Positions 28,401-64,000 of a stretch of 64,000 bases of DNA are shown here, in pieces (within the stretch, counting starts at the first letter, position 1; every line of letters starts with the position of its first letter). The stretch is from Malus domestica (Eukaryota > Streptophyta > Magnoliopsida > Rosales > Rosaceae). The notes under the pieces were generated by a model. It did no database searches, was not told where the DNA came from, and worked only from the letters and a program-made list of their open reading frames with translations. The stretch is taken from assembly GCF_042453785.1 (NCBI RefSeq), contig NC_091664.1:983001-1047000 (forward strand), written 5' to 3'. A program made the position numbers and the translations under genes.

Positions 28401-28738
28401 AAGAAAGCAAAAGAACAAAAGAACAAAAGCTTGAGAGAGAGAGAGAGACCTGTAATCCAAGATATCCAGACAGAGTCATGGGTTGTAGAGAGAGAGACAG
28501 AGATTTGTTCGGGCTCGAAACCTTTGACGATTCTTCGAACTCGAGGATCAGTGTCCGGCAAGTCAACGGCATTGCCTCGAAAGCTGTCGTCGAGAGGAAC
28601 AGTGACAGGCTTAAAGGGTCCTTCGAGGGTTGTCGGTATTCCTCCATTGACAAACGTGAAGCTCACGGGACTCACAGTCAGCACAAGCAGCAGATTAAAG
28701 GTTGCAACTTTGGGCGGTGGAAACAAAAACAAACCCAT
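25434..28738 (-). CDS. Purple acid phosphatase, PAP15/phytase-like (copy A)
   Basis: A secreted metallophosphoesterase of 544 residues in seven exons (minus strand): 28450-28738, 27594-27785, 26982-27315, 26670-26887, 26384-26574, 25940-26224 and 25434-25559. A signal peptide (MGLFLFPPPKVATFNLLLVL) is followed by an N-terminal Fn3-like PAP domain (SVSLSTTHDSVWISWITG) and the catalytic domain. All five metal-binding blocks are present: GDLG, GDVTY, GNHEIE, VAAWH and GHVHAYER. Several N-glycosylation sites occur. The family hydrolyses phosphate monoesters outside the cell, in the vacuole or in the wall. The length and the insert DPCGPVYITVGDGGN place it near Arabidopsis PAP13/PAP15/PAP23, PAP15 being a phytase. 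Phytase activity is inferred only. It is about 97 percent identical to copy B. Confidence 0.92.
27883..27960 (+). repeat. Au-SINE-like remnant in PAP copy A intron 1
   Basis: CTTATCTCACTAAATAGGG, then ATGAATTCTAGAATGTCACTGCG and CAAGTCTTCCGTTGTTAC, follow the 3' half of Au-type SINEs. A further decayed counterpart lies at 32150-32216 in copy B. Confidence 0.55.
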
Positions 28739-28782
28739 CTATTTTTACTATTATTATTGTTTGAATTAAACAGAAACGAAAC

Positions 28783-28796
28783 TCAAATATAAATAG
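28783..28796 (-). promoter_or_regulatory. TATA box of PAP copy A
   Basis: On the minus strand CTATTTATATTTGAG, about 50 bases before the start codon. It is identical in copy B at 32930-32943, so both copies kept their core promoter. Confidence 0.55.
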
Positions 28797-29708
28797 AAGA
28801 ACTGGACTTAGCTGCTGAAAGATCAGCAGCAGCAGTTGCTTACGACCAATCACAACTGGACACATGTCTAAGTTTTGATATTTGCTGCTGATCTGTTCAG
28901 TAGCGAAATTCTATCCTGATAGAAATAGAAACCCAACACGCCTTCCAGAAAAAACCAAAAAAGAAACCCAACAAAATTATTGAAGGCTTGCTGTAAAATC
29001 CTATGTTGAAGCTAAACGTCAAACAGACAAGGACAAAGAAAATATGGCCGGTTTTGACTTTTTTTTTAATATAAAAGCACTCCAAAATTTCGAGAGAAAA
29101 CATCTACTTGTAAGCTAGGGTTTTTTGGTTCCCTTCTCTTAAATCAAATGTTGTGTCATCAATAGAAATAAGCACGTTAATCAACCCTTGAATAATAATC
29201 CAATCAACAACTTCCATGTCATTTAATTTAACATATTTTGTCTACAAATTTAGTCTTCTTAACATTATCCTTTCTAAATTATTAAATTTGGTGTGCTTTT
29301 CTAAGTGTTATTTTATCGAAGTCTTACTTGTAAAAACAAATAATCTCAGAACCGGCCCTGGTCAGTACTAGCCAGTTCAGTTTTTAATCTAAGCTACAAT
29401 TGTGGTTCGCTACTCACCTATCAGTTCCTATCAGTTTTTAATCTAAGCTGCAATGGTGGTTTGCTACGCATCTATTAATTGTGGTTTGCTATGCACGTAA
29501 ACGGCTGGAGGATTACAGAAGAAATGAAATTTTATTGGAAGAAATTGTATTAGATTGTGTGAAAGATAATTTAACCCTGTCGTCCACAAGTTGAAGACAC
29601 GGGCTCACAACTAGAAATCTGCAGAAGTATTACAAAAATGTAGGGATGAACCAATCTGTTGTTATGATATTATTCAATAACGTCCTTCGGTTTCCCGCTC
29701 GCCATTGT

Positions 29709-32700
29709 TTATGCACCGTTGTCTGTAACCGGACACCTATCGGGCTGCCTTACAATGTAAATTAGGTCTGCAGAGGTGCTGTACATGTCCTGATTCCGGT
29801 GCCAAGTCCATAAAGCATAAGTCTCGTTTTTCACCTGCAAGTCGCACAGAAATACTTCTTAATCCTGTAACCGCGTAATTTTACACAAATTGCATTGGAT
29901 GGATCTATTTTTCTACACAAATGCAGACATTTTTCAAGTCGGCTTCGAGTAGTGTTTTTCTAAACAGCACTCATCAGGAGTCGAGACCTTAGCAGTTGAT
30001 GCGGTCACAGAATTACGATTTCACAGTTTAATGAAGTTCTAGTTTTGCAGCTCAACGTGGATTCGGAATATTAGTTTCCATGCATGTGAAAATGAACGTT
30101 CATAGTACTAAAAACTGAATGCAATTTGTTAAAGAAAGACTTAAATATGAAAATAATTTATCCGTAATACTGTCAAGAGTTTGTGTTTTCATAGCAAAGA
30201 GAAAAGGGAAGTACCTCTAGAATCCCATGGCCAAAGCTACTCTCTCGATACGCACTGTATTCAGGCTGCTTGTCCCAACAGAACTTTCCTGCTGCTGGGC
30301 CATTTGTGAAATTAAATGCGCAGAAGCCGCCCATAAACTTATCCGAAGTTGTAGATGGTTCTGGGCAGTTTCCGGGTTCATCAGCATGCGCAATTGCCAT
30401 CTTCTCCCGGTTACCACCATCACCAACTGTGATGTAAACAGGGCCGCAGGGATCCAATGTGTAGTTATACACTCGATTTGACCTCTCGTAGGCGTGAACC
30501 TGTTTATTAATTGTTTCCAAACAGTCAGAAGTAACTCTCATATTTTTTCAACAGCTTGACAAAGCACATATAATGGAAACTGTTAATACCACTAAGAATT
30601 CTGGAACGTATTTGGGGACTTCAAAAACAAGTTCCTTTGCTCAAACTAAACACTTACATGGCCGTTGAAGACGATGTCAACACCATACTTGTACAGTATG
30701 TCTTCCATCTCAACTTTCATACATTCCTCTTCTCTGTAATGTGCCGTGTAGGTGCTGTACCATGGTGGGTGCCATGCTGCTACCAACCAAGGAGTCACAT
30801 TTCTGTCAACTTTAGCCAAGTCTTTCTCCAACCACTTGTATTGATCGTCTGTGAGAGAAAACCTAGTCATCTTAGTATGTCCCTAACTAATAACCATGCG
30901 AAAGAAGTGAAAATTTTCTTTTTTGGGAAAGCAGATGCAGTAACCTGATTTGTGATAGGCTGTGTAAGCACCGAGCATTATAAAGTGTATCCCGCCTGCA
31001 TTGAATGAATAAAACAATGTAGATGATGATCCACTCTCGTTGGAGGGGAATGCAAATCGCGAACTATAAGAAGCAAATGTTCGATTCCCAGCCTGTTCTT
31101 CGATCTCATGGTTCCCTTCTACCACCATCATTGGAACTTTAGACACTAGCGGCTGCATAAACCTGATAACAAACATACCATAATTTTGCAATTAGGTACG
31201 TTGTGCGAAAAATGACCAGGTGCTCCCTCATCAAAATAAAGCACAGAAAAACTCACCTTCCCCAGTAATCCCAACGAGGCTGATAAGTTTCATCAATAGG
31301 AGTTTGCGAGAATAAGCAAGAGTAGCAATCAGACCCAGTGCCATTTGTGAGGTACGTGTTAGCATAAGTAACGTCCCCAACCAATAACATAAGATCAGGT
31401 CCGTTAGCCAACAAGTGGTCGACCGTTGATGTAGTATTGTATGTAAGGCCAAGGTCCCCAACCACAGCTATTCTTCTGGGGTAACTCTTGGGACCGGATA
31501 CTGGCATAGTCTTGAAATAAGATATTTTGCTCATATCTGCAATGTTAGGATCTCCACATTGATACTGATACAAAGTGTTGGGTCTCAATCCTGCACAAAC
31601 CCGTTAATATTTAGAGAATTGCATACAAAATCATACATCCGTAAGTCCAAACAAAAGCAAATTCAGACGAGCGTTCGTGGACATACATGCACGCGTATCA
31701 TTTGATGATTTTGTTAATTTGATTTCGAAATCATGAATCTTAACTTATACGGAATAAAGTTAAACGATTAAACAATGGATACAACTATATGTTAAGGAGC
31801 AGATCATAAAACAATTTCATATTTTAGGATACAAAATTATTCATAAGGGGATTCAAGACTGATTCGTACCTGTGAGACGAACATGGTGTATAATTCCGGA
31901 AGTGTAGTTTTGGAGGCCTTCAAACGGATACAGCTGATTGTAAATAAGGGAATACCCCGTTGATTGGTTATCCATAGGGAATCCGTACCTTCCATATGTA
32001 ACAATACTTGAAACATTATTCGGATCCAACGGTTTTATATTGTCTCCAATTTGAAATTCCCCTGCAAATTCGATCATGAGATAGATTTGAGAGTCTTCAA
32101 TTCATCATGCAACTACATAACTCAATAGTTTTCGTTTACAACAACAACAATTAGGTACGTTGTATGAATTCTAGAACGTCACTGCGTTCAGTTTCCGTCA
32201 AGTCTTCCGTTGTTACATAACTCAATGGTTTTGGTGTACAACATTAAAATGCTCAAGTCCACCCCAAAACATGCCCATCCAAAGACCAAAAGAAGTAACA
32301 TTTCCATCCTTTAATATTCTTCTTATAATCTAACATAAACTACGGAAAGGGGTATCCAAACTCGCATGCATGGGTGGAAGTACATAATACATTCACTCTG
32401 GCCATCGTGACTACGACACGAAATTAACAGATCCTCCAAACAATCTCACTAAAATGTGAAAACTAAATATAAAACTCATTTGTTAGATTAAAAACTCTCA
32501 ATCTGCATAAGAACTTGGAAACAACATATCCAACCAAAAGTACAAGGCAAGGAAAGCAAAAGAACAAAAGAACAAAAGCTTGAGAGAGAGAGAGACCTGT
32601 AATCCAAGATATCCAGACAGAGTCATAGGTTGTAGAGAGAGAGACAGAGATTTGTTCAGGCTCGAAACCCTTGACGATTCTTCGAACTCGAGGATCAGTG

Positions 32701-32885
32701 TCCGGCAATTCAACGGCATTGCCTCGAAAGCTGTCGTCGAGAGGAACAGTGACAGGCTTAAAGGGTCCTTCGAGGGTTGTCGGTATTCCTCCATTGACAA
32801 ACGTGAAGCTCACGGGACTCACAGTCAGCACAAGCAGCAGATTAAAGGTTGCAATTTTGGGCGGTGGAAACAAAAACAAACCCAT
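29709..32885 (-). CDS. Purple acid phosphatase, PAP15/phytase-like (copy B)
   Basis: The second tandem copy, 544 residues in seven exons whose lengths equal those of copy A exactly: 32597-32885, 31870-32061, 31257-31590, 30945-31162, 30658-30848, 30215-30499 and 29709-29834. The signal peptide and all five metal-ligand blocks (GDLG, GDVTY, GNHEIE, VAAWH, GHVHAYER) are intact. By eye, about 14 residues differ from copy A. Half of them fall in exon 3 (for example ASG to VSG, TPIHE to TPIDE) and none touches a metal ligand. The first intron is about 130 bp shorter. The promoter is also duplicated, so both copies may be expressed. Function as for copy A; subfunctionalisation is possible but not shown. 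Confidence 0.92.
32150..32216 (+). repeat. Au-SINE-like remnant in PAP copy B intron 1
   Basis: Counterpart of 27883-27960: TTGTATGAATTCTAGAACGTCACTGCG minus its head, then AAGTCTTCCGTTGTTAC. Shared by both gene copies, so inserted before duplication. Confidence 0.5.
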
Positions 32886-33215
32886 CTATTTTTACTATTA
32901 TTATTGTTTGAATTAAACAGAAACGAAACTCAAATATAAATAGAAGAACTGGACTTCGCCGCTGAAAAATCAGCAGCAACTATTGCTTATAACTAATCAC
33001 GACTGAACACGTGTCTAAATTTTAATTTTTTCTGATCTGTTCAGCAGTGAAGTTCTATCCTAAATAGAAATAGAAACCCAACACGTCTTCCAATAAAAAA
33101 CAAAAACAGAAACCCAACAAAATTATTGAAGGCTTCCTATGTTGAAGCTAGAAGTCAAACAGACAAAGACAAAGAAAATATGGCCGGTTTTGATTTGTTT
33201 TTTTTTTAATACAAA

Positions 33216-43368: not shown

Positions 43369-43645
43369 AAGGGTCTTACATGTCTACTGCCTGTCAAAGG
43401 TTGCAAAAGGATACTTGAATCAGTGGTATTTTGCAGAAGCTTCACATTTCCTTTAAATTTTTTTCCCCTTTGAATCTGTGGTAGTATTTGTTGCTCCACG
43501 ACAAATATTCAACGTTGTCATTAAAGCGGGGATTGGACTCGTAAAACTATATTACTCAGTTTGTAGCACAGTACTTAACACTCTCCACCAAACAGTTTGT
43601 ATGGATGGTATTTTAAGATGAAAATGTTGTACTGCAAAAAATTTT

Positions 43646-43801
43646 AGGGAATTTTAACAAAATGTTATCGGTATTGTTCACTTTAACAAAAAACCATATT
43701 TTTACACTAAAAAATCAATCCGGGTACTATTCACTTTACTCTTTATTTTGTTTTTATAGTTAAAACTCAAAATTTTCATGTTATTTTCATTAGGTTTCCT
43801 A
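43646..43801 (+). mobile_element. 155-bp MITE, copy 3 of 5
   Basis: Begins AGGGAATTTTAACAAAATG, contains GGGTACTATTCACTTTAC, and ends TTCATTAGGTTTCCTAA. It lies about 280 bases after the ERD2 stop and faces copy 4 in inverted orientation 450 bases away. Confidence 0.75.
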
Positions 43802-44256
43802 ATTTTTTAATCATGCGTTTATTTTATGTCAATCGGTGTGTGTAAAGTTTTAAAGGGAAACAATTTTCTCGCTTCCTTTTTCTCCTCTGGCACTCCATTG
43901 CTTGTTTCTTTCCCTTGATTCACCGTGGATTTGTTCAATCTCTGGCTGAAAACAAGGGGAGTATAAGGGGATAAAGACGGAGGTGAAAATCATTTCTCAC
44001 AAGTTAAATGTATGTGAAATGTTGTCACATGACACGCTGTGTTCAACATTTAGCCATCTTCTCAAAAGTTAAATGTATTTGAAGCACAAGAAAGACAAAG
44101 ATTGAACTTGGTCCAAAACAGTCTCCTATTCGAGAGAAATCTAGAGATGATGATGATTAAAGAATGAATGGTTCTGTATAAACAGTAATGATGATCGCCA
44201 TCATCGTTCAATAAGGCATGATTTCTTACATGTAAGAATCCAAGTATTGTTTGGGA

Positions 44257-44411
44257 AGGAAAATTAATGAAAAGAACTTGAAAACCTTGAGTTTTAACAA
44301 TAAAGACAAAATAAAAGATAAAGTGAATAGTAACAGAATTGATTTTTTAATGTAAAAATGTGATTTTTCGTTAAAATAAACAGTACCATAAGTTTTTTTA
44401 TTAAAGTTCCT
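44257..44411 (-). mobile_element. 155-bp MITE, copy 4 of 5
   Basis: Inverted relative to copy 3: AGGAAAATTAATGAAAAG on the left, AAAGTGAATAGTAACAG in the middle, and ATTAAAGTTCCT on the right. Together with copy 3 it could form a large hairpin in a read-through transcript. Confidence 0.75.
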
Positions 44412-44594
44412 AAAATAAATCCTTGAAGCCGTTGAAACATAATTGACACTTTGAGGCTTGAAATGAATTTTTTACCCATTCAAGTGAGATAATCAAAGGG
44501 TTAGGATGCAAAATTCGATGCAGAAGAGTTTATGAACGTTACGTGGAAGTAACTACAAAAAATAAATAATAAAATAATAAAAAATCAATGATCC

Positions 44595-48899: not shown

Positions 48900-50900
48900 A
48901 GATGTTGGAGATTAAGCTTGTTGCAGGATTGAAGTTTGCTTGGATTTCAAGTTTCCTATAAAAGTTGAAGTGTTGTTCTTAGTTTTAGCTAGAACACTCG
49001 GTCACAATGTATGACTGGGATTAAAACATCTTAATGGCTTGTATTGTGCGATCTGTCTTTTCTATTAGAAGTTTAAGTGAAAACATGTGCTGCTCACATG
49101 GGATTTGTTAGCTCTAGACTTGTGTGAAGCGTGTGAGGCCTAACGGCTACATTCCTTTTGTTTATATGCCTTCATGCTTCTCGTGTGAAGATGAGTGTGA
49201 TCCAATACATCACACTGCCCTAAGAGCAACGAACTCTCTCTGCAAGTTTAAAGAACATTCCTCTTGCCTTCATCATCACAATCTTCGTTCATTTTTTCAG
49301 ATTTTGGAATCCAATTTTTACACAAAGTTAACAGCGGATAGGTTTAATAAAATTTTCAATATGCCTGTATTGTCCTCGTTTGTTTTTGAAAATGGTGCGA
49401 ATTACCCTCGATCATTTTCACGATTGAACTTCTCTAGCAGTTTCTTCCAGCAGACCACAGGCGACGAGTTCTTTATGTTCCTATCTTCAAATTCGTCATG
49501 AGTTCTTTATGTTCATGGATTGCGCACCCCCGTTCTTTTTCTTCGATGAAGTAACTTATTTCCGTTTGAATTTTGTTTTCAGGACGATATATCAACATGA
49601 CGGAGTGCTGCAAAAAGGAGGTTCAGTTGAGTTAACTTGTTAGAACTGGTGTCTATATTTTTAAGAATGTTGATGGGAAAGGACCAAAGAGCTTCGTTGA
49701 TGCTTTATCTTCGAAGTTCTCTGTTGTATGACTTGATTGGTCCCTAAGTCGAGAAAGCATTCCTTCCTTGAATTCTGTGGTGTTAAGTTTGTATTGAACA
49801 TGCTTAATTAGTTGAGTTTGTGTTCTGATTCTGTTGATGATCAGCCTAACGTGGAACCAAATTATCTAGGTTTTGCAAGGTCTTGGGTGCCGAAATTAGT
49901 CATAAGCGGAATACTGGCTCAGTGCTGATTCTTTTTTATGCTTTTATGATCAATCAATTCATTGTTGAAAGTAGTTAGTAACATACGAAACGACCATAGT
50001 ACGTGTATTATTCGGCAACTTTGCTAGAAGTTTACTTTGAAAAGTTTGGCCATTTTTTTAATTTTAATATTTATTTATTTAAATCAATTACTTATTTTAT
50101 TTTTAAAAAGTATATTAAAAATACGTGTAGAATATGTGAGTCTTATATGTATTACTGAAAAATATGTGAAAATAACGTGTATTAATGTGAATAGTACGTA
50201 CGTGTTTAAAGCATGTATAGTACGTTGGAAATTTAAAAAACATATAATTTATTGATTTAACGAATCATTAAAACGTGTATGAAAAATAACATTATTTTGA
50301 ATACTACGTAAATATATATATATGATAGGCATATTAATATTATACACGAATTGAAACAGACATTTAGACAAATTGGGCCATATCTTACAAAAACATTAAA
50401 ACAAAGGTAATTAGGTCTATACTGATTTAGGGCCAAAATGGTTTTTATTTTACACGAATTGAAACGCTAGTTTTATATTTTTCTTTTTTTGACTCAAGCA
50501 ATATTCTGAAGGGCTGTATCAAACTTAGAACCTCGACTATAAACAATAAACACTCTTAACCAACTTAGTTACGAATTTATTGCACGCTTTTTCTTTTTTG
50601 ATCATTTCTCTCTTTTTCCTCCAAAAATTAAACTCTGGTTGGGATTTTTGTCTCTATAATTAGGTAAAAAAATCATGTGACCCCAATTGCATGGAAAAAA
50701 AAATTGAGCACCAATTAACAATGGGTGCTTATTTTCTAAAAAAAGGGGAAGAGGTTCTTGTTAATTAGTTATAACTTATTTTTAATTCCAGCAAATGAGT
50801 GTGTTTTCCTCAGACAAACATCAAAGCAAACAGCTCAAGCACTTGTAAGAACACGTCGAAGGTCGTAACAGAAAGTCCAAACTGATACAACTACCATCCC
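48900..50900. other. Spacer upstream of the beta-galactosidase gene
   Basis: No supported gene. Open frames at 49124-49501 and the phrase GTGTCTATATTTTTAAGAATG near 49650 show no recognised domain. They could be remains of a decayed gene. From 49990 the sequence is AT-rich with repeated ATACGTG/ACGTGTAT words (50110-50280). A tRNA-Leu-like SINE remnant sits at about 50500-50575. Confidence 0.4.
50500..50578 (-). repeat. tRNA-Leu-like SINE remnant
   Basis: On the minus strand it reads TAACTAAGTTGGTTAAGAGTG and then GAGGTTCTAAGTTTGATAC. These correspond to A and B boxes of a tRNA-Leu-derived SINE. A more decayed relative lies at 17640-17715. Confidence 0.45.
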
Positions 50901-50910
50901 TCAATCTTCC

Positions 50911-50920
50911 CTTATATACC
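50911..50920 (+). promoter_or_regulatory. TATA box of the beta-galactosidase gene
   Basis: CTTATATACC about 115 bases before the start codon at 51033. This is a normal distance for a plant promoter and shows that the intronless gene has a usable core promoter. Confidence 0.55.
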
Positions 50921-51032
50921 ATTGGGTTTCATGGAGTTTCTCAGCAATCTTCTGACCGCCTCCTCCTTCTAAGGAGGACGAATAAGTTTCTTGCTCGAAT
51001 CAAAAGAACAAAGTTTCTTGCTCGTATACACA

Positions 51033-53561
51033 ATGGCAGTACCAATGAGTCGAGTGCTCTTGATTTCTCTTGTTTTCGTAGTGATCACAGCCGCGCTAGT
51101 CCATGCCAAAGGCCACGGACCTCATCATCATCATCATAATCAATCATTGCAGGTTGGCCCCGTGACATATGATGGCAGGTCACTGATTATCAATGGGAAA
51201 CGCGAGCTTCTGTTTTCGGGTTCAATCCACTACACGCGAAGCACGCCAGAAATGTGGCCTGATATTCTCGAGAAGGCCAAGCGCGGAGGCTTGAATGTGA
51301 TTCAAACTTATGTGTTTTGGAACATTCATGAGCCTGTGCAAGGGCAATACAACTTTGAAGGAAACTATGATTTGGTGAAGTTCATCAAGCTGGTTCAGGA
51401 GCATGGAATGTATGTTACCATTAGGCTTGGTCCATTCATCCAAGCCGAATGGAACCACGGAGGACTTCCTTATTGGCTAAGGGAGGTCCCTGGAATCATA
51501 TTCCGTTCTGATAACACAGCATACAAGTATCACATGAAGAATTTTGTGGATATGATTGTGAACAAGTTGAGAGATGCGAAGCTGTTTGCTCCACAGGGAG
51601 GTCCGATTGTCTTGGCGCAGATTGAAAATGAGTACAATATGGTCCAGCTTGCATATAGAGAGTTGGGAAACAGTTACGTGAAGTGGGCAGCAGAGATTGC
51701 GGTGAATCAGAACATCGGAGTGCCATGGATCATGTGCAAGCAGAAGGATGCTCCTGATCCAGTTATTAATGCTTGCAATGGAAGGCATTGCGGAGATACA
51801 TTCACAGGCCCTAACAAACCCAACAAGCCATCTCTATGGACTGAGAATTGGACTGCTCAATACAGAGTATTTGGTGACCCTCCTTCACAAAGATCAGCAG
51901 AGGATATTGCATTTTCCGTTGCTCGCTTTTTCTCAAAGAACGGAGCTCTAACCAACTACTATATGTACCATGGTGGCACAAATTTTGGAAGAACAAGTTC
52001 TATTTTCACAACCACCCGTTACTATGATGAAGCTCCTCTCGATGAATATGGTTTGCCAAGGGACCCCAAGTGGAGTCACCTCAAGGACTTGCACAAGGCC
52101 TTGAAGTTGTCCAGGAAGGCTTTGCTCTGGGGAGTTCCGGGAGTTCAAAAGATAAGCAAAGATACAGAGGTTCATTTCTATGAGACGGCCGCAACCAACA
52201 TCTGTGCTGCTTTCTTGACAAACAATAACTTCCAAACTGAAGCAACTGTTAATTGGAGGGGCGTGGATTATTACCTGCCACACCGTTCCATTAGCATCCT
52301 CCCCGACTGCAAGACCGTGGTCTTTAACACTCAGAGAGTTGTTTCGCAACTGAACTCTAGGAACTTTGTTCGATCAAAAGTTGCTAATAATCTCAAATGG
52401 ACCAAGTATGTAGAACCAGTTCCTAGCACCCTTCAAGTTCCAGTCAATAACCCGACCCCGCTGGAGCTGTATAGCTTGTTAAAAGATACCACAGACTACG
52501 CATGGTACACCACTAAGCTTGCACTGAGTCCACAAGACTTGCCCATGAAGGAAAGTATTCGACCAGTTCTTCGAATCGCAAGTCTTGGTCACGCATTGCA
52601 CGCATTCGTCAATGGGGAATACATTGGTTTCGCACACGGGAGCCACGATGAGAAGAGCTTTGTTTTCGAGAAACCAGTTCCCTTGAAGGCTGGAGTCAAT
52701 CAGATTTCTCTGCTTGCGATGACAATAGGACTTCCAGATAGCGGAGCCTACATGGAGCACAGATATGCAGGGCCTAATCTCGTAGCAGTACTAGGACTGA
52801 ACACCGGAACACTGGACCTCACGCGAAACGGATGGGGGCATCAGCTTGGTCTGAGCGGAGAAAAGCTTCAAGTGTTCACTGAGGAGGGATCGAAACAAGT
52901 TCAATGGCATAAAACAAAGGGAGCAGCAGAGGGTCTCACATGGTACAGGACTTCTTTTGATGCTCCAGAAGGCCATGACCCTGTTGCTATACGAATGGCT
53001 GGAATGGGAAAGGGAATGATTTGGGTGAATGGTAAAAGCATCGGCCGCCACTGGACGTCCTTCCTCTCTCCTCTTGGAGAACCAACTCAAGCCGAGTACC
53101 ACATCCCAAGGTCCTTCATTAAACCTAAACAAAATCTCCTTGTTGTGTTGGAGGAGCAGCCAGCCAAGCCCAAACCCATCGAGATCCTAACCGTCAACAG
53201 AGATACTATCTGTAGCTTCATTACTGAATATCATCCTCCGAATGTGAATTCATGGGAAAGGAAGGACAGCGTTTTCCAACCTGTGTTCGATGTTGTCAAA
53301 TCATCTGCAGACATCAAGTGTCCAAAGAACAAGAAGGTTGTTGCTGTTGAGTTTGCAAGCTTCGGAGATCCAACTGGCATCTGTGGCAGCCTTGTCTTGG
53401 GAAAATGCAACTCCCCTGTATCGAAGGAGGTTGTTGAACGACATTGCTTGGGAAAAACTAGCTGCTCGGTCCCGATTGATCGCAATCTTTTCGCCAGCAA
53501 AACCGATGGTTGCCCTGATATCAAGAAGACACTTGCTATCCAAGTCAAGTGTGCTATATAA
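51033..53561 (+). CDS. Beta-galactosidase, GH35, with C-terminal lectin domain (intronless)
   Basis: A secreted exo-beta-galactosidase of 842 residues in a single open frame. The start at 51033 (MAVPMSRVLLISLVF) gives a clean signal peptide ending near HAKG; an ATG at 50991 would add 14 residues before it and is less likely. A His-rich patch (GHGPHHHHHN) follows. The GH35 domain contains GGPIVLAQIENEY with acid/base Glu200 and SLWTENWTA with nucleophile Glu271. Beta-sandwich domains follow. The tail from about residue 755 is an SUEL/Gal-lectin domain (VVAVEFASFGDP, CSVPID). It acts on galactose side chains of pectin, xyloglucan or arabinogalactan in the wall. By sequence it resembles the BGAL11/13/14 group. 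Genes of this family normally have many introns; this one has none. Confidence 0.95.
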   Translation: MAVPMSRVLLISLVFVVITAALVHAKGHGPHHHHHNQSLQVGPVTYDGRSLIINGKRELLFSGSIHYTRSTPEMWPDILEKAKRGGLNVIQTYVFWNIHEPVQGQYNFEGNYDLVKFIKLVQEHGMYVTIRLGPFIQAEWNHGGLPYWLREVPGIIFRSDNTAYKYHMKNFVDMIVNKLRDAKLFAPQGGPIVLAQIENEYNMVQLAYRELGNSYVKWAAEIAVNQNIGVPWIMCKQKDAPDPVINACNGRHCGDTFTGPNKPNKPSLWTENWTAQYRVFGDPPSQRSAEDIAFSVARFFSKNGALTNYYMYHGGTNFGRTSSIFTTTRYYDEAPLDEYGLPRDPKWSHLKDLHKALKLSRKALLWGVPGVQKISKDTEVHFYETAATNICAAFLTNNNFQTEATVNWRGVDYYLPHRSISILPDCKTVVFNTQRVVSQLNSRNFVRSKVANNLKWTKYVEPVPSTLQVPVNNPTPLELYSLLKDTTDYAWYTTKLALSPQDLPMKESIRPVLRIASLGHALHAFVNGEYIGFAHGSHDEKSFVFEKPVPLKAGVNQISLLAMTIGLPDSGAYMEHRYAGPNLVAVLGLNTGTLDLTRNGWGHQLGLSGEKLQVFTEEGSKQVQWHKTKGAAEGLTWYRTSFDAPEGHDPVAIRMAGMGKGMIWVNGKSIGRHWTSFLSPLGEPTQAEYHIPRSFIKPKQNLLVVLEEQPAKPKPIEILTVNRDTICSFITEYHPPNVNSWERKDSVFQPVFDVVKSSADIKCPKNKKVVAVEFASFGDPTGICGSLVLGKCNSPVSKEVVERHCLGKTSCSVPIDRNLFASKTDGCPDIKKTLAIQVKCAI

Positions 53562-54621
53562 CTATATAAGGTGTTATAAGAGAGAATTTATGTTTCCTGT
53601 GATATTTGTCATTATGAATTCAATAAAAAATACTATTGCAAGCTTAAGTTTTATATTTCTTCGTAGTAATTAAGATTGTCGTTACCTCCTCAGTAGAAAA
53701 AATGATCATAACGTAACCCATAGAATTTCATTTTTCTATTTTTCCTTGCAGCTCAAGTTCATAGACAAGAGGAATGGTTAATGACATACGTTGTGTACGC
53801 TATAATGAAATTTACAACAGAATCTAGTAGCACATCTGTACAGACGAAACACGAACATAGAAGAAGCCTGCCCGATCCAGAATGCTTCGAGTCTGTTACC
53901 TTTTTCATCAGCTTATGCTCCAACTTTTTTAAGAAGCTGCTTTTAAAGAAATTTAAGCAACACCAAACAAGCCCTTAGTAGCATGCTTGTTAACTGATCA
54001 CACCAACAAAACAACAAAGCTTCACATGCTCTAGGCTGACTTGATAGAGCGCTCAGACCTGAGAGAAAACCAGATAATAATTCCGGTTTTACCATGTTTA
54101 TCCGCCAAAACGGAAGCTACTTGACCTGCATCACAGAAGGATTTTCCGGAATTTAGATCAGATCGTGCTGATTAATTACATAAGCGCACATAATTTCTTT
54201 CCAACCCAAGCTACTTTGGCATATCAAGCTCAAACTTATACATGACCTACAGCACAACATATGAAGGCATACAAATAATGACAAACTGCAAAGTCGTAGT
54301 CATATTACCTTGAGCAATGTATCTCTGGCGTATCAGTTAAATGACATACGATAGCGCATATATCACCATCATCAAACATAATGGACTTACAAACGTTGAA
54401 AATACAGAAGCTGAGTAAATAGTTCGATCATATAATATAAGTCAATTGAAATCGTAAAACTCAAATTCAGGCCACATACATAATTTACTTGTATTTAGGG
54501 AGCACAACAATCTCGTTTGCACAAACTAATTCCAATCCCTTTTCAGCATCTTCGATCTTCTTCAGAATATAATCATCTCTCTCCCTCTTCAAGCTTCACC
54601 AAACTGAACCCTAATTAGTTT
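53562..54621. other. Spacer downstream of the beta-galactosidase gene
   Basis: AATAAAAAAT near 53621 can serve as a poly(A) signal of the beta-galactosidase gene. The rest, 53700-54600, has no recognised gene or element. No poly(A) tract follows the coding region. Confidence 0.5.
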
Positions 54622-55136
54622 TGTTTGTACCATACTTGACTAATCCCGAAACTATTGAGCACCGGTCAACGTTATACCGTCAAGAACCCATAAGAGTTTC
54701 CCTCCAACCAGGAAGCCAATCACAGTGCGACACGTGTCGACATCAGAAGTCAATCATAGCGCGACATGTGTCAACATCAGAAGCTAATCACAACACGACA
54801 CGTGTCAATGTCAGAATGAAACTAGAAACTCTCTTCTATAAATAGAGATCATTCTCTCACAATATTGCCTAATGTCATTTGTACTAAATCATTCACTAGT
54901 ACTCACTAAAGGAGAGCTTGAACTTATGTACTTGTGTAAACCCTTCACAATTAATGAGAACTCCTCTACTCCGTGGACGTAGCCAATCTGGGTGAACCAC
55001 GTATATCTTGTGTTTGCTTCCCTGTCCTTATTCATTTACATACTTATCCACACTAGTGACCAGAGCAATCTTGCGAAGGTCACAAACTTAACACTTTCTG
55101 TTGTACCAAAGTCCTCACTGATTTTGTGCATCAACA
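54622..55136 (+). mobile_element. 5' LTR of the gene-capturing element
   Basis: TGTTTGTACCATACTTGAC to GTGCATCAACA, 515 bp. It contains three tandem copies of a 35-bp unit around GCGACACGTGTCGACATCAG (54726-54815), each with a G-box-like ACACGTGT or close variant, then a TATA box TCTATAAATAGAG at about 54836. Confidence 0.8.
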
Positions 55137-55439
55137 TTTGGCGCCGTCTGTGGGAATCGACACGAAAAGCTATGTCGGTTCTCTTTCATTTTTTCATCTC
55201 ACCACCGCGAGACCTCATCACTGTCCACCGTGAATCTGCAAAACCCATCTATCAAAAATGCAGAAATAAAAACACCTAAACTCAACCACAATTTCTTCTC
55301 TCTCCTCACCAACCCATCTCAGATCCTTTGGTCCTTCCAAAAAGATTAGCCTGAGCAGCATCAAGTGTGGTGCTGTTGCAGACACTGAACCGCCTCTCCT
55401 GCCACTTAACGGAGATCAGGCGTGAAGTCGTTGTTCACC

Positions 55440-55690
55440 ACGTGGATGTACCCGCGTCTGCACCGCGGCATACGCTACACCAGTGCCACACCGAAGTGGT
55501 TAAACGCTATCGTCACCTGCATCACGGAGTCCGGCAAATACTTGTCGTTGACGCCCAACAGCATCACCTCGTTATGGTGGGCAAAGTAGTTGTTGGAAAT
55601 CGTGATTCCGGTCGACCTCATGATGACGTCGATTAATCCATCAGCGCAGAACGAGAGGGAGCAGTGGTCGATCCAGATTTTGTGAGCGCT
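55440..55690 (-). pseudogene. Captured pectate lyase fragment inside the LTR element
   Basis: On the minus strand this encodes a run typical of pectate lyases (PL1): [20 protein letters not shown], then [28 protein letters not shown] and [11 protein letters not shown], followed in the same orientation by RMPRCRRGYIHVVNNDF. These are the catalytic-core blocks of the enzyme that cleaves de-esterified pectin. Both ends of the gene are missing and the fragment is broken, so it is a relic carried by the retroelement. No intron is seen in the retained part, compatible with capture from mRNA or from one exon. Confidence 0.8.
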
Positions 55691-56014
55691 GAAGAGGGAG
55701 ATGTCGTCGCTGTCCAACTCGCCGCGCTCTGCCTCAAACTCGCTCACCTCCTCCAGTTCTCTCCAGCCGCCGAGGCCCGAGCAATGTCCGCCATTCTCCT
55801 TCGCAAGCAGTTCGGTTTCGCCTCCTGACACATAAACCCTCCTTGAACCATCCACAATCCACACTCTTTCCCAATTCGATTTCCTTGCACTGACTGAGTT
55901 TTTCAGCAGAGAAAATGAGTTCAGTCATTGCCAGATTCATCAAGTTTATGAGGGTTTCCGTTCCTTCCTCGCCTACCTCCTCACAAGGAGCAGAAGCTAG
56001 ACTCGAAGAGCAGA

Positions 56015-56235
56015 GAGCTGCTGACGTGGGCTCTGGTCAAGGTGGTTCAACCTGGTGACCGTGTGATTGCCCTCCATGTGCTCTGTAAAAATGAAATTGT
56101 TGATCGAGATGGGAAGTCATTGCTTATCTCTCTTGTCAAAGCGTTTGATTTTGTTCTTGCAGTCTATGATGGTTTCTGCAACTTGAAGTAGGTGGATCTC
56201 AAGCTCAAAATCTGTAGGGGAACATCAATCAAGAA
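56015..56235 (+). pseudogene. Captured fragment of a USP-domain receptor-like kinase
   Basis: Forward-strand translation shows LVKVVQPGDRVIALHVLCKN, then EIVDRDGKSLLISLVKAFDF, then VLAVYDGFCNLK and VDLKLKICRGTSIKK. This matches from memory the N-terminal universal-stress-protein-like domain of plant RLCK-type (often inactive) kinases. The kinase domain is absent. It is broken and lies in the opposite orientation to the pectate lyase fragment, so the two captures were separate or rearranged. Confidence 0.65.
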
Positions 56236-56739
56236 AAGCAAGTGTTGTCACTTTAGAGAAAAGGAATACAGAAAGCAAAAGCAAGGAGTGAGGAGATCAA
56301 GAGAAGCAAAAGATAAGCTTCATATTAATTCTATCACGATTCCTTTTGTCTGCCAGGTGGAGAGACAGAAAGAAAAGCAAGAAAAGCAAGTGGGTGGTGT
56401 CAAGGCTATCTAGGCACTGTTACGTTTTACAGGAGAACATGCAGGAAATGGAAAAGAAAAAGTAAAAGCAAAAGCAAAAGCAAAAAGCAAAAGAAGATAA
56501 AAAGAAGCAGACATAATTGCGGTGGTGATGGCATGCGGAAAAAAGGAATTATGGGCGTGACCCATTGAGCAAAGGGTCGGATTTATTTTTGAATGATGTA
56601 ATTTATTTTTCTTATCTTTCGGAGACATCTGTATAACCCCATCAGAAGGTAATAAATTTTTTTTTAAAAAATACGGCAAGCCCAAAATAATGGGCTAGAA
56701 TGTTATGTGGAGGGTCAAGGCCCATATGCCCAAAAGAGC

Positions 56740-57190
56740 CAAGCCCTCCATTATCACCAACCAGGTGATCAGAAGTACGTCCAGTACTACAAAAAATTAT
56801 TCAGCAGTCTGCCGCTATTACCACCAACCAGGTGATCAAAAGTACGTCTAGTACTCCAAAATTATTTGGCAACCTGCCACTATTATCACCAACTAGGTGA
56901 TCAAAAGTACGTCCAGTACTACAAAAAATTATTCGGTAGCCTGCCACTATTATCACCAACAAAGTGATCAAAAGTATGTCCAATACTCCAAAATTATTCG
57001 GTAACTTACCGCTATTATCACCAACCAGGTGATCAAAAGTAAGCCTAGTACTACAAAAAATTATTCAGCAGCCCGTCGCTATTATCACTAACCAGGTGAT
57101 CAAAAGTACGCCCAGTACTCTAAAATTATTCGGCAGCCTGCCGCTATTATCACCAACTAGGTGATCAAAAGTACGTTCAGTACTCCAAAA
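56740..57190. repeat. Tandem repeat of alternating 67- and 65-bp units
   Basis: Seven units keyed on AGGTGATCAAAAGTACG begin near 56765, 56832, 56897, 56964, 57029, 57096 and 57161. Spacing alternates 67, 65, 67, 65, 67, 65, because one type reads TACTACAAAAAATTATT and the other TACTCCAAAATTATT. So the true repeat is a 132-bp dimer. It is internal to the LTR element. Confidence 0.85.
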
Positions 57191-57194
57191 TTAT

Positions 57195-57405
57195 ACATGA
57201 GCATCACTCATGTCAATCATACATAAACATTCATGAGTATCACTCATGTCAATCATACATAAACATTTATGACCATCATTCATGTCAACATTCATGAGCA
57301 TCACTCATGTCAACATTCATGAGCATCACTCATGTCAACATCCATGAGCATCACTCATGTCAATCAACATCAACATTCATGAGCATTACTCATGTTAATC
57401 AACTT
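57195..57405. repeat. CATGAGCATCACTCATG minisatellite
   Basis: About eight copies of a 23-35-bp unit containing the imperfect palindrome CATGAGCATCACTCATG joined by TCAACATT or TCAATCATACATAAACATT. It follows directly on the dimeric array and precedes a few AAAGCTTCA words (57405-57500). Confidence 0.8.
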
Positions 57406-57539
57406 CGAAAGCTTCATTTACAGAGCTCCAGCTTTAAAAGCTTCATGTACAAAAACTCCAGCTTCAAAGCTTCACTTGCAAAGCTTCACCTATAAAGCTT
57501 CAATGCAAGGTATACAAATACCACATCCGAACCACTGTC

Positions 57540-58200
57540 ATTTCGGCCTATACATGGATTGAATTTGAAGTCTCCAGCCAATAACCTCTATTGACTGAAG
57601 ACTTGGGGGACTACATTATGTACCATATATTGGGCCTCAACTGGGCCTCATGAAAAATACTTGGGGGACTTAGCCCATTATTTATGTACTAAGGAGCGAA
57701 CCCTTATTATATAAAAGGGACTCTTTCACTTTCATTAGAGAGCACCCATTATTCATGTACTGAGGAGCGAGCCCTTATTTTATAAAAGAGACTCATTCAC
57801 TTTCATTAGAGAGCACTCATTATTATGTACTGAGGAGCGAGCCCTTATTTTATAAAAGGGACTCCCTCACCTTCATTAGAGAGCATCGCCGCCAGCTGAG
57901 CAACCGCCTCGCCGCCAGCATCACTGCTAACCCTTATTATGGCGCCAACATTATGTCCCATGTATTGGGCCTCAACTGGGCCTCATGAAAAATACTTAGG
58001 GGACTTAGCCCATTATTTATGTACTGATGAGCGAACCCTTATTCTATAAAATGGGCTCCCTCACCTTCATTAAAGAGCATCGCCGTCAGCTGAGCAACCG
58101 CCTTGCCGCGAGCATCACTCCTAACCCATCACTTATGTATTGAGGAGCGAGCCCTTATTCTATAAAAGGGACTCCCTCACTTTCAATGCCACAAGCCGAG
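57540..58200 (+). repeat. Repeated LTR-promoter-like units and an inner LTR edge
   Basis: Around 57590-57612 the sequence GAAGACTTGGGGGACTAC and then TATGTACCAT copies the purine tract and LTR start found at 58381-58409. After it, five copies of GAGGAGCGA(G/A)CCCTTATT followed by TATAAAAG (near 57692, 57764, 57831, 58027, 58142) match the core promoter part of the 3' LTR (58500-58525). Thus LTR promoter sequence has been multiplied inside the element. Confidence 0.7.
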
Positions 58201-58398
58201 CCAACCAAGGCAACATAAGCCACAAGCCGAGCAGCCTCGCAACATGTGCTACTTCTAGTTAAGCATCATTTCACATTGAGCACCGCCTCATATCAAGTAT
58301 TCAGTTCTAGACGACATCTAGTTACTTCGGCCCACACATGGACTTAATTGCAAGTCTCCACCCAAAAGACTTTCTTGACTGAAGACTTGGGGGATTAC

Positions 58399-58779
58399 TG
58401 TTTGTACCATACTTAGGGCTTTCGTATTTAGATCTCGTATAAATACTCGGGGAATTTAAATGTAATTATGTAATAAATGAAGGGGCAAATATGTAATAAG
58501 TGAGGAGCCCTTATTCTATAAAAGGACTCCTCACTCTCCTCATTGGGGGAGGCCAAGTCTTAGGCCTGAGATCCCCAAAGCTTCCCATATTCAAAGAAAA
58601 GCCTCATTCTCATTACAGAGGCTCTTTCCCTCATAATCCTCTCAGAGAAATACAATATCAGTGTAGACGTAGCTCAAACATTGGGATGAACCACGATACA
58701 TCTTGTGTTATTTACTTTCTTGCAGATTCACGGTTGGATTTACGTTGTTCCAAGACCCTTCCAGTTTTGTGCATCAACA
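58399..58779 (+). mobile_element. 3' LTR of the gene-capturing element
   Basis: TGTTTGTACCATACTTAGG to GTGCATCAACA, 381 bp, with TATAAAAGG at about 58517. Its middle is unrelated to that of the 5' LTR and instead matches the repeated units at 57685-58200. Confidence 0.8.
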
Positions 58780-58849
58780 AGTTTTTACCCCAATACATCT
58801 TCCACCAACACCAACAAACTTAATCTCAAACTAGTTACAAGTTGCACAG

Positions 58850-59825
58850 TAGGGGTGGGTTCAAAAAACCGAAAATCGAAAAAAACCGAAAACCAAACCG
58901 AACCGAAACCGAAAAAATCGAACCGAACGAAAAAACCGAACCGAATTGAAAAAATCGAACCGAACCGAATTCTTTTGGTTCGGTTCGATTTTAGTGATCT
59001 AGAAACCGAACTAAACCGAACCGAACCGAATTAATTAAATTAATTTTTTTATTTAATTATTTGTTTTGGGTATTATTTTCTAAACCCAATTTGTAAGTTA
59101 AAATGTGCTAAACCCAATGTGTTGCCAAACTTTAAGCTCAAAATATTTAAAAAAGGCCTATAAAAACTCTAAACCCTAACCTATTATTTATCCCCCATAT
59201 AAGGTTCCGGAACCAAACCTCCTCCAGAAGTACCTACATCCATCTCCATAGCACTGCCTACTTCTGCCCTAGCTTTCTTTTCCAAATCTACTCTCATATA
59301 ACATGTAACAGAATCCATAAACATTTATTTCGGGTAGATTACTTGGGTAATTTGTGATGGAAAAGAATCTAACACACACTAAATAAATCCACCCACGCAT
59401 TATTTTTACTAATCAAGTTGTCAACATGCAATTACAAGCAAACAACCTTGATCTTTGAACAACATCATACAATTTAACTTTTCTAAGTCATTTGTACGAT
59501 TTTTGTGTTGTGAGGTTGTTAGTTTGGACTTTGGAAGACTTGATTGATGATTTTAGTTCAATTTTAAATGTTTATTTTCATTGTCTTTGATTCTAGTTAG
59601 AATGCTTATGTTATGATTGTGTTGGATATGTTAAAATTTAAATTTTCAATGTTTTTCATTTTTTGAAAAAAAACAAAAACAAAAAACCGAAACCGAACCG
59701 GAAAAAACCGAACCGAAAAAAAAACCGAACCGAAAAAAACCGAAAAAAAATGAACCAAACCGAAATTTCGGTTTGGTTTCGGTTTTGGCAAAAAACCGAA
59801 CCGATTTAAACCGAACCCACCCCTA
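58850..59825. mobile_element. hAT-type non-autonomous DNA transposon, 976 bp
   Basis: Perfect 13-bp terminal inverted repeats, TAGGGGTGGGTTC and its complement, are flanked by a perfect 8-bp target duplication TTGCACAG (58842-58849 and 59826-59833). An 8-bp duplication is the hAT signature. Both subterminal zones are dense arrays of ACCGAA words (58870-59030 and 59685-59820), in both orientations, as expected of transposase binding sites. The centre (59040-59680) is AT-rich without a transposase. Clean ends and duplication point to a fairly recent insertion, later than the LTR element 70 bases away or independent of it. Confidence 0.92.
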
Positions 59826-59884
59826 TTGCACAGTACAAAAAGGCAAAACAAAGAGTTATCTTGGCAGCCTTTGAAAGAACTAAT

Positions 59885-60336
59885 GAATCCAGAAGAAGCT
59901 AGTAGCGTCCATCAAACCGGGGCATAAAGCAAAGAGCGGGTGAAACGCTTGGAGAGTAATGCTTGGTTATGGTTTCATCCTCTAAATTGAAAACACCTAC
60001 ATCGCTTGGCCTGATATCACTATCAGATAATCGCCCTCATCCAAATTTTGTCCTGCCATCCATGTAACATAAATAGAATAACTATCAACCAGGAAGAAAG
60101 TCTTATCTCCAATTATTTTTAGCTCAACATGTTGTGCAACGGATCCATCCCTCTCATCGAACACCAACTTGTAAACCACGAATACAACAGTCCAACACTT
60201 CTCGCCACAAGAACCTGCATTAACATTTGAACAATCTCCGAACATGTAGTAGTTTTCCCTTGATTGATTCCACGAGATACACTTTATCGACATAAACCGA
60301 GAAGGGACATTCTTGCGGGTCAAGCATCTTTGCTTC
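59885..60336 (-). pseudogene. DUF295/KIB-like F-box-associated relic
   Basis: On the minus strand: VVYKLVFDERDGSVAQHVEL, then IGDKTFFLVDSYSI, and in another frame DVGVFNLEDETITKHYSPS. This order (kVyKLd.., iGD..lF.., Gvy.led) is that of the DUF295 domain found in plant F-box/KIB proteins. The C-terminal part is frame-shifted relative to the first part and the N-terminal F-box is absent, so it is a truncated dead copy. A MITE (60374-60507) and a solo LTR lie just upstream of it. Confidence 0.6.
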
Positions 60337-60373
60337 TATCGGGTTGTTATTGACATAGAAGAACAGAATGCAG

Positions 60374-60507
60374 AAAACTAACGAAAATTCCAAAAAAACT
60401 GTAGTTTTAATGAAAAATGATAAATAAAGGTGTAGTGAATAGAAAAGGTAAAAATGTGGTTTTTCATTAAAAGTGAACAATATTAGAAGTGTTTTATTAA
60501 AACTCCC
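60374..60507 (-). mobile_element. 155-bp MITE, copy 5 of 5 (shortened)
   Basis: AACTAACGAAAATTCC at the left, TAGTGAATAGAAAAGG in the middle and TTATTAAAACTCCC at the right. Inverted orientation, somewhat deleted compared with copies 1 to 4. Confidence 0.6.
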
Positions 60508-60526
60508 TTATAAAATTGTTTGGACC

Positions 60527-61686
60527 CTAAAATATTGTTTAGGCCGAGTTAAAGTTAACTTGTCTAACTCGGCCCAGTGTTGGATATGCCGGGTTTAAAT
60601 CCTCTCTCGGCCCAGAATTCGTGTACAGGTGTCAATGGGAGATATTTAGCCCATAGGCTGCCCGGTCGAAATTGGCCATATTCTATCGAAAAGTGGAATG
60701 TGGACGAATCCTGTTGTGAGAGGGAGTCTCGACGGGATCAGGATGCTGAGATTGAATACGGTCTGATAACGAGTTATGTTCGGAGTCCTCGTAAGAATAG
60801 GATTGGCCGACATGAAATTGGATAATGAGAAGGAGTTTTAATCCAAGAGTGATTAGGATTCAATACAGGCTGGCTGTTATAAATAGAGAGGAAAGACATC
60901 GAAACAACCCCCTTCAATTCAACACACAACTGCCCTGCGCAAATTATCTCAACAAACTTGAGATTTTTTCCTTTTCTCTTTTCGCCGACACATCTTCAGT
61001 TTGGATAAACAGTACTGCGAAGGTAACCGATGATATCTTCAGTCGGCATAGATAACACTGTTACCGTAGAATTAGCCGACCTCGCAGCATCTTCAGTTGG
61101 CATAAATAGCACTGCGTCGAGGGCGACTGGTTATCTATCCAAGTCTCGATTGAGAAGGATTTCCGAATCCTTGTTGGTCGATGTCATCTTATCAGCCTTC
61201 TAAGCGAAGTGAGGTGTTACAGTTTACTGGGCTCGGCACATTGCACGCCGAGTTATTTTATGATTGGATACTCACAAGTGGGATTTAGAGTTCGGCGTTC
61301 CAACGGCCGAACCACGTTTACTGTTAAGACTTATATTCGCTTTGAGTATTTGTGGCCTTACACTTTGGTGTCGATTCGGCGTGAGTTTACTCTGACGAAT
61401 ACTATCACTGCGATCGAATCCGACGACGACGATTTGTGAACTTCGTAAGAATAGTAGCCTTGTCTTCAGGTTCGAGAACTCAAGAGGCCGAGACGTGTTC
61501 CTTCCTCGGTCAGAATCGCAAGACGCAGAAGTCGACCGCGCACCCAACGCAACATCAGCATATTTTACTCCTCAGCCGAGCTCGGCCGACGAGTTGGCAC
61601 ACCCCGCATTCAACCGAAGGACGTAGTTAGCTCATAGATTACTCGGCATGTGCGCCACGTAGGCTAGGTAGTTTTTAGGATCAACA
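60527..61686 (+). mobile_element. Solo LTR, 1,160 bp
   Basis: Starts TGTTTGGACCC and ends GGATCAACA, with a perfect 5-bp target duplication AAAAT at 60522-60526 and 61687-61691. A TATA box (TTATAAATAGAG) lies at about 60878. The interior is GC-richer than the flanks and has repeated TCTTCAGT(T/C)GGCAT words (61035-61110). No internal element sequence remains. Family inferred as Ty3/Gypsy from size; open frames in it are incidental. Confidence 0.85.
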
Positions 61687-62126
61687 AAAATACAACATCA
61701 TTAAGCAAGTACCCTCTCCATCGCTTTCTGTAAATAGAATTGTAATGAAAATTTATATGGTATAAAATGTTTCACGTTATTTGGTGCAGAAATTTAATGT
61801 ATATAACTATTTTTTAAATAAAAAATTCCGTAGCATGGAAGCAAAACCCCATTTGACACTAAAAAAACTCAAAGCCCAAAGTAGGCAAATTTGTGATTAA
61901 ATCAAAAGAAAAAAGCAAAATTAAGAGCAAAGAAGAAAAAAAATTGAAAACTCCCCAACAGAAATAGCAAAAAGAAAAAAAAGAAGAAAAGAAAAGCCTA
62001 ATCTCTTTTAATAACCATTGCAACGACAACGTTTCAAGCAGTTTAAGCTTTTCATTCTTTACAAACCAACGCCGCCGTCTCCACTTCAGTCTCTGGTGCC
62101 CCGTCTGAAGCTGAACACATACAGAA

Positions 62127-63721
62127 ATGGCGTCCTTGATGACAATGCTAAGAAGCAGCAGAGGGAACGCTTCCATCTTCGGCACTAAGAGGTGGGCCCA
62201 CATCGCTGCCATGCCTCCGCCGATGGGTGGGGCTATGCTTCAACCTAACATTTCATCGCCACCGTTGGTTCTGCCAGAGTCCGATCGGGATCCAGAGAAG
62301 AACAGCAACATCGGGTTCGGGTTCCCGAGTTTCTTGTTCGGTGGATCCATGGAGCTCATGGCTGTCCCCAAGAGGAAGGTATATATATGTATTTCTATGT
62401 ATCTGGGGATTGGGGTTTTAGGGTTCTTGGTTCTGGAATTTATTTACTGGATCATATTTTTGGATTAAAAATGAATTCTTTTTGTTTTCATGTGGAATTT
62501 CATTTGAAATTGGTTAATGGGTTTTCAATTCCATGTTATTATTTGCTCTGATGACTTTGTATGGGTTCTGTGTATGGTAGAATTGCCCTGTTCTGTGTAA
62601 TTAGTATGTAGCGCTTATACCAGTAGAAATTCGATTTCAACTTTCGGATTCATGGTATGGAGGATTTATTTATTTATTTTTTATTATTACCTGCTGTGAT
62701 TATCTTTCTCGAACGCAATCGTCCGCTGTCTGATTCATCGTGGTAATCTTTCATATATGCATTTCATTTTCGTGCATTTCATCACTTGTTGAAGATTTAC
62801 AATCGAAGGCGGCATGTCATACATACTATAACTTTGATGTTTCATTTGCTTTTTTGTTGTCATTGTGTTATTGTAATGCACGTTTAGAAGATTTGGAGAT
62901 TTGATATATAAGGATGTATATCGTGCAGACTTCTCCCCACAAGAGAGGCATAAGAAATGGCCCGAAGGCTCTGAAACCTGTTCCGGTGATAGTTCGATGC
63001 AGGTAAGTGCTTTGTGACTTTTGTAAGCCTTTCCTTCGATGTGGAAGTAAAATACTTCTGCAAATATTTCTTCTGTTTTATAATGAAATATAGTTGAATA
63101 GTTAGCTGGAGGTTTGAATTGTTATTGATAATTTGGTTGCGGATTATCGGAGAGAAACAACCGTGTCGACTACTTTGACAATGGAAGTTTATGGTATTCT
63201 TTCTGTGACTTCTTTGACAATTGAAGTTTGTGTTTTATTTAGAATCCATGTGTTGAGTCGATGAAATAATTTTTGGTTATCAAGATAGTGTCCATTGTAT
63301 TACCTGCAAACAGCATGGAAAATGATTTGGCGAATTCGGAAAAAGCATGAAACGAACAAATTTAGATGTTGATGTTTTTATTGGAGATGTATCATAATGC
63401 TTCAGCTATACTTTTAATTATTAAAAGAAGATATAATATCATTCTATGTCAGAAAAATATGAGAAGTTGTGTGTTCTTATGTTTTTCTCTTGTTGTTGAG
63501 TAAACCCGGAACCTAGTTTCCTGATGTGAACTCAGTATCTAGTTTAATTGCTTGTGATTTTAGCCTATATTTGCAATGAAATCCAGCATATAGCAATAAA
63601 ATCTTAATTTTGACATATAACAATATTTGGTTACAGGGGTTGTGGTCGTGTCAAGCTACCGCACTTTTATTGTTGTAGCGGTAGAGAAAATGCCGGTGAG
63701 CATGATGGCTCAAGAAGTTGA
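62127..63721 (+). CDS. Mitochondrial large ribosomal subunit protein bL32m
   Basis: A 136-residue protein in three exons: 62127-62378, 62929-63002 and 63637-63721. The N-terminus MASLMTMLRSSRGNASIFGT is a mitochondrial presequence (Arg/Ser-rich, no acidic residues). The core is the ribosomal protein L32 domain: AVPKRKTSPHKRGIRNGPKA, then CRGCGRVKLPHFYCC, with two CxxC/CC cysteine pairs forming the zinc site. The exon joins keep frame (RC-RGCG). It is part of the large subunit of mitochondrial ribosomes, near the peptidyl transferase entrance in bacterial structures. A pyrimidine-poor, A-rich stretch precedes the leader. The 5' and 3' ends look complete; the downstream 280 bases are 3' UTR or spacer. 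Confidence 0.93.
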
Positions 63722-64000
63722 GATTGAAGTCACTGTGGTGTAGGGCACCCAACTGTAGTAGACGTGTTGGATGGAGAGGTTAAAACCCTAGAATTTACTA
63801 TCAAATGGCTCCTTTCGTTTCTGTTATGGTTCCAAAACTGAGATTTGTGGTAGGTCTTCAAGAAAAACAACTGAATTGATTTTTTGTTCACTTAATCAAA
63901 GGCAATTTTGTTCGCCCTCAGTTTCTGTTCGTCCTTCTAAAGTTTTTCGCCCTCACTTAATGAAGGGTGTTGTTTGCATTTCGAGCATGGAGAAACTTGT

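Follow-up and report, generated by a model that had tools for sequence, protein, structure and literature searches.

An Insertion with Mismatched LTRs, a Target-Site Duplication and an Antisense Pectate Lyase Fragment

Structure of the Insertion

Positions 54622–58779 of the window (the whole stretch of DNA analysed, 64 kb in length) are occupied by an element of 4,158 bp starting with TGTTTGTACCATACTT at its 5′ end and finishing with TTTTGTGCATCAACA at its 3′ end. The features recognized in the element and at its borders, from left to right, are as follows.

54617–54621, no strand: target-site duplication, left copy AGTTT, identical to the right copy
54622–55136, plus strand: 5′ LTR-like terminal sequence (family A), 515 bp, TATAAA at 54837
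55139–55156, plus strand: PBS-like site TGGCGCCGTCTGTGGGAA, 2 nt past the 5′ LTR, starting with TGG, the complement of CCA
55421–55717, minus strand: fragment of a pectate lyase gene, 99 codons with a single in-frame TAG (Pfam PF00544; PDB 1pxz, Jun a 1)
55733–55810, plus strand: possible importin-5-like fragment, 26 codons (presumed resemblance)
55997–56236, plus strand: possible fragment of a USP-domain kinase, 80 codons with a single in-frame TAG (presumed resemblance)
56750–57194, plus strand: non-coding tandem array, period ~65 bp, 6.8 copies (repeat analysis)
57537–57635, plus strand: second, internal copy of the pre-PPT/PPT/LTR start, with GGGGGA at 57605–57610, 79–80% identical to 58321–58419
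57674–57885, plus strand: LTR-U3-like segment with a TATA box, three tandem copies, period 71 (repeat analysis)
58389–58394, plus strand: polypurine tract GGGGGA, ending 4 nt ahead of the 3′ LTR
58399–58779, plus strand: 3′ LTR-like terminal sequence (family C), 381 bp, TATAAA at 58438 and 58517
58780–58784, no strand: target-site duplication, right copy AGTTT

The element displays several features expected of an LTR retrotransposon, namely TG…CA termini directly abutted by AGTTT on the left and on the right, a 5-bp duplication, a PBS-like site, and a polypurine tract. The coordinates and AGTTT flanks proposed in the first-pass annotation hold, since the termini, the PBS-like site, and the purine tract are all in place. 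For the PBS-like site, a match of 17 bases occurs once in the window (at up to three mismatches), with 0.02 occurrences expected. The AGTTT match could be a chance event, though with low odds: two random sites share a 5-mer with a probability of 0.0015 when positions are drawn within 50001–64000, and of 0.00135 when it is calculated from base composition, the frequency of AGTTT itself being 0.0027. In the 64-kb window, no second copy of the element was found at E 1e-3, its own internal repeats aside. Overall, 54622–58779 is a real, single-looking insertion carrying a host fragment.

Scanning of 43 stop-to-stop frames revealed no retroelement domain at E up to 0.1. In total, 56 such frames of at least 40 aa exist; the other 13, outside the domain scan, are wholly or mainly LTR or flank, with two of them (54983–55279 and 55036–55185) extending into the beginning of the internal region. 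The earlier statement that all retroelement genes had been replaced is borne out to this extent, i.e., as the absence of a gag–pol domain from these 43 frames. Pectate lyase aside, the interior matched no Pfam family better than DUF4330, which was hit by one of the 43 frames with an E value of 0.0013. The right half of the element is a patchwork harboring a second PPT/LTR start, and further copies of the U3-like TATA-box segment lie at 58017–58127 and 58133–58243. The search of the window at Rfam gathering thresholds and the tRNA search of the window both returned zero hits.

Confirmed and Possible Host Gene Fragments in the Interior

The minus-strand fragment was matched to the pectate lyase family PF00544 with an E value of 5.1e-08 as read and 7.8e-14 with X at the stop, and to Jun a 1 (1pxz) with E values of 7.5e-22 and 1.6e-29, respectively; the alignment to Jun a 1 spans 97 residues with zero gaps. 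Both comparisons uphold the pectate lyase and the strand assigned in the first-pass annotation, with an extent (55421–55717) slightly beyond the 55440–55690 given there. The in-frame TAG takes the position of a Q in Jun a 1 and would fit a C-to-T change in a CAG codon. Thus, as in gene-capturing LTR elements of the Bs1 kind, a host gene fragment lies between the LTRs. A full-text literature search revealed nothing joining a captured pectate lyase gene fragment with an LTR retrotransposon.

Of the two unrelated host genes claimed, only the pectate lyase is supported, the USP-domain kinase being a possible resemblance unconfirmed by any tool. The frame 55997–56236, which we take to resemble a plant USP-domain kinase, matched zero Pfam families at E up to 10, and its comparison with PDB yielded just seven myoglobins at chance level (E 0.58–1.7). 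The frame 55733–55810, presumably resembling plant importin-5, had zero Pfam or PDB matches. Hence, one host gene is established, the USP-domain kinase is a plausible second, and the importin-like frame is a lead to a third. In addition, 55273–55416 and 55915–55983 appear gene-like by eye only, and no Pfam family was matched in the frames tried.

Several other approaches were applied to the second fragment. A full-text literature search with six peptides gave no match. Scanning of GTDB contigs with the USP-kinase-like frame returned 164 stretches fitting the pattern, a single one of which passed; this stretch (Anaerolinea MAG, 21 residues, 67%, query residues 5–25), whose E value is relative to the candidates only, was judged a chance match. 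Viral contigs contained 25 stretches, none of them a relative, and zero occurrences of the PBS pattern. The single-sequence AlphaFold2 model of the fragment (68 residues, mean pLDDT 58.8) was too poor for use. Codon-usage scoring trained on four ORFs of the window ranked the USP-like frame at the top of its six; the same scoring missed the right frame of the confirmed pectate lyase fragment and, therefore, carries no weight for or against the other fragments.

Mismatch of the Two LTRs

The LTRs are not copies of each other, since most of their length is non-homologous. They have in common the first 16 bp, the last 15 bp, and a R/U5-like sequence of ~60 bp; three tandem 34-bp repeats are situated in the 5′ LTR-like sequence at 54712–54816. 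Short-word BLAST aligned the R/U5-like parts over a block of 66 columns with 51 identities (~77%); the other blocks comprised 42 columns with 32 identities, including the shared end, and the first 15–16 bases. The local score of the whole LTRs was 49, against maxima of 30 in 200 shuffles and 28 in 400 random pieces of the window, so the two ends of the element are related.

The central U3 parts gave a local score of 23; the mean and the maximum of 300 shuffles were 18.3 and 25, and the 95% point and the maximum of 400 random window pieces were 22 and 27. The similarity of the U3 middles is within the chance range, near its upper edge. By comparison, the U3 of the 3′ LTR scored 61 with the internal repeats at 57600–58190 (control maximum 28 in 400 pieces), so it is far nearer to the internal U3-like repeats than to the 5′ LTR (61 vs. 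23). The U3 of the 5′ LTR scored 29 with the internal region, the maximum in 200 control pieces being 27. Judging from these scores, a weak relation of the 5′ LTR U3 with the internal region may exist, and the U3 score of 23 is also just above the 95% point. The LTR mismatch is the new point here, overlooked in the first reading, whereas the capture of host genes alone is well described.

Relation to Known Chimeric and Gene-Carrying Elements

Normally, both LTRs are identical after reverse transcription (PMC1950507; PMC13317346, excerpt). Two classes of complex elements were distinguished by Sabot and Schulman: post-insertion recombinants, with different outer LTRs and without a duplication, and template-switch products, with a duplication and similar outer LTRs (PMC1950507). 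As the element described here combines different outer LTRs with a duplication, neither class fits. It resembles the template-switching complexes reported in 2007 in being a mixed element with a 5-bp flanking duplication; however, the outer LTRs of those complexes are highly similar and enclose two full internal regions (PMC1950507), whereas the present outer LTRs are different and the interior yielded no domain. With the recombinant complexes of Devos and colleagues, it shares the differing outer LTRs, but those complexes, as described in PMC1950507, lack flanking duplications, one of which is present here. Within the available portions of PMC1950507, PMC7251063, PMC5668417, PMC12786077, and PMC10085805, there is no case of different LTRs together with a duplication, which is not proof of the absence of such cases.

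LTR elements capturing one or several host genes are known (PMC13317346 and PMC4717578, excerpts). Thus, Bs1 of maize is an LTR element with segments of host genes, three in number (PMC13317346, excerpt); here, in contrast, just one fragment is confirmed, it is antisense, and the outer LTRs are mismatched. According to PMC7264820, transduced sequences are usually in sense orientation, antisense capture being the rarer direction. The soybean TRIM GmaRetroS15 is alike in its 5-bp duplications and its non-coding interior, which comprises fragments of three host genes; gene-carrying TRIMs are 1,172–1,449 bp long and mostly multi-copy (PMC4717578, excerpts). The present element, with its 4,158 bp and LTRs of 515 and 381 bp, is outside the size range of gene-capturing TRIMs.

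In rice, 672 genes captured by LTR elements are listed in PMC3726574, and in sorghum, 1,343; unique small RNAs occur on 12.6% and 60.5% of them, respectively. By analogy with these small RNAs, the proposal that the element could feed small RNAs against the parent genes is plausible in general. The companion proposal that it could spread antisense pectate lyase sequence is unsupported as it stands, since the LTRs differ and the copy is, hence, not readable as a product of the normal replication cycle. As a whole, there is only partial support for the initial reading, in which the locus would be an ordinary LTR element harboring two host genes.

Origin of the Insertion

The combination of a target-site duplication with non-matching LTRs can be accounted for in several ways. 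Two neighboring elements of different families might have been fused after their insertion by recombination or deletion, the AGTTT match being accidental. Differing outer LTRs are typical of post-insertion recombinants, which form the majority class (in the Triticeae set, they number 20, and template-switching complexes 2; PMC1950507), and the right half of the element contains pieces from more than one LTR. On the other hand, such recombinants occur without flanking duplications (PMC1950507), and here the 5-bp match falls exactly at independently defined termini (chance ~0.0015), so the fusion of neighbors seems unlikely, albeit worth serious consideration.

Alternatively, an ordinary single insertion might have had its 5′ or 3′ LTR replaced later, another family serving as the donor for gene conversion or repair, with the outer bases and the duplication kept. 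This scenario explains the duplication and the different LTRs at once, and gene conversion of plant LTRs has been documented (PMC7251063, excerpt). Still, conversion requires homology, of which the U3 parts display none beyond the shuffled range, and conversion within an element is far commoner than between elements, as stated in PMC7251063, making LTR replacement improbable.

We are still less inclined to believe in a very old element, whose once-identical LTRs decayed with large indels. The similarity of the whole LTRs does exceed chance (49 vs. a maximum of 30 in 200 shuffles), and ~77% identity is retained across the 66-column block; the decay would, however, have been uneven, leaving perfect ends (16 and 15 bp) and a U3 without clear similarity, and the pectate lyase fragment has just one stop in 99 codons. 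Finally, the gene fragments might have been brought in by a Pack-MULE, Pack-CACTA, or Helitron nested within the element, since such elements gather fragments of several genes (PMC13317346, excerpt), but the five inverted 16-mer pairs (at up to three mismatches) found in 55137–57000, the range of the TIR scan, included none with a target duplication, and no hairpin with CTRR T after it turned up on either strand of 54622–58779, so this origin appears very improbable.

The reading we prefer, and to which we give about an even chance, is a single insertion of a chimeric cDNA of a non-autonomous LTR element, with its ends from two related families and host filler. Starting from the observed termini, duplication, LTR mismatch, pectate lyase fragment, and absence of detected gag–pol domains, we infer that the ends come from two families, as well as the route taken, the involvement of a helper, and the succession of events. 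The left end (LTR and PBS) would stem from one family and the right end (purine tract and LTR) from another, related to the first yet separate from it; just past the PBS, one or more antisense fragments of host genes would have been filled in. RNAs or cDNAs of the two families and those of host genes would have been gathered in one particle, where, due to a strand-transfer error, the plus-strand strong-stop DNA of one family would join the minus strand of the other at the PBS; alternatively, two cDNAs could have been end-joined with host filler between them. Either route would yield, before integration, a linear cDNA whose two LTRs differ. This cDNA would then be taken by a helper integrase, generating the 5-bp duplication on insertion; presumably, the 16 and 15 outermost bp common to both ends would allow the helper to act on either. 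The position of the host filler adjoining the PBS, its left edge being approximate, would fit an error located there.

Separate steps of the chimeric-cDNA route have parallels. In ONSEN, frequent recombination among family members takes place during reverse transcription/transposition, and for one copy with three parents, recombination of extrachromosomal DNAs was put forward as a possible source (PMC5668417, excerpts). According to a review, second-strand transfer is mediated by the alternative end joining of the host via PBS microhomology (PMC12786077). The published template-switch model yields identical outer LTRs (PMC1950507); hence, the error proposed here differs from the described one. 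A more far-reaching suggestion, which we regard as rather doubtful, is that chimeric LTR insertions include a third class, represented by this element. In that class, second-strand transfer would go wrong, the plus-strand strong-stop of one family being linked to the minus strand of another via host alternative end joining; the resulting cDNA would have two different LTRs still acceptable to the integrase, and pieces of several host transcripts would serve as filler in both directions beside the PBS. If this were true, the gene capture and the LTR mismatch would be two traces of one repair event.

Implications

Both LTR dating and LTR-finding programs presuppose LTRs that are identical at insertion, so they would overlook or misdate an insertion that combines differing LTRs with a good target-site duplication. 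Such an insertion would also indicate the mixing of families and the pickup of host sequence via intermolecular second-strand transfer or cDNA end joining. Should the host genome contain more copies, the filler adjoining the PBS would be a direct record of the mixing step.

Sequence Surroundings

To the left of the element, a plant-type beta-galactosidase (GH35; PF01301, E 1e-117; SUEL lectin domain) is encoded at 50973–53561 in a single uninterrupted frame of 862 aa. Plant GH35 beta-galactosidase genes usually contain many introns, so this gene may be a retrogene. This gene and the pectate lyase mark the host as a plant, perhaps a rosaceous one. A minus-strand frame of 36 aa at 54485–54595, coding-like by eye and with zero Pfam matches, stops shortly before the element; it may represent the last exon of a gene adjacent to the insertion.

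Elsewhere in the window, a tandem segmental duplication extends over 25085–33204, with 25085–28054 and 29360–32309 being 96.9% identical and a second pair, 28172–29067 and 32314–33204, 92% identical. Inside a ubiquitin-protease frame (UCH, zf-UBP), a stretch of 97 bp is tandemly repeated at 12097–12289 (97.9%), and part of the protein is, hence, repeated. An element of ~130–165 bp, MITE- or SINE-like by its size, occurs in both orientations at 18073–18236, 20578–20710, 43641–43803, and 44256–44416, the copies being 80–86% alike. To the right of the insertion, simple repeats of the AACCGAACCGAA type at 58860–59040 and 59635–59810 bracket ~600 bp.
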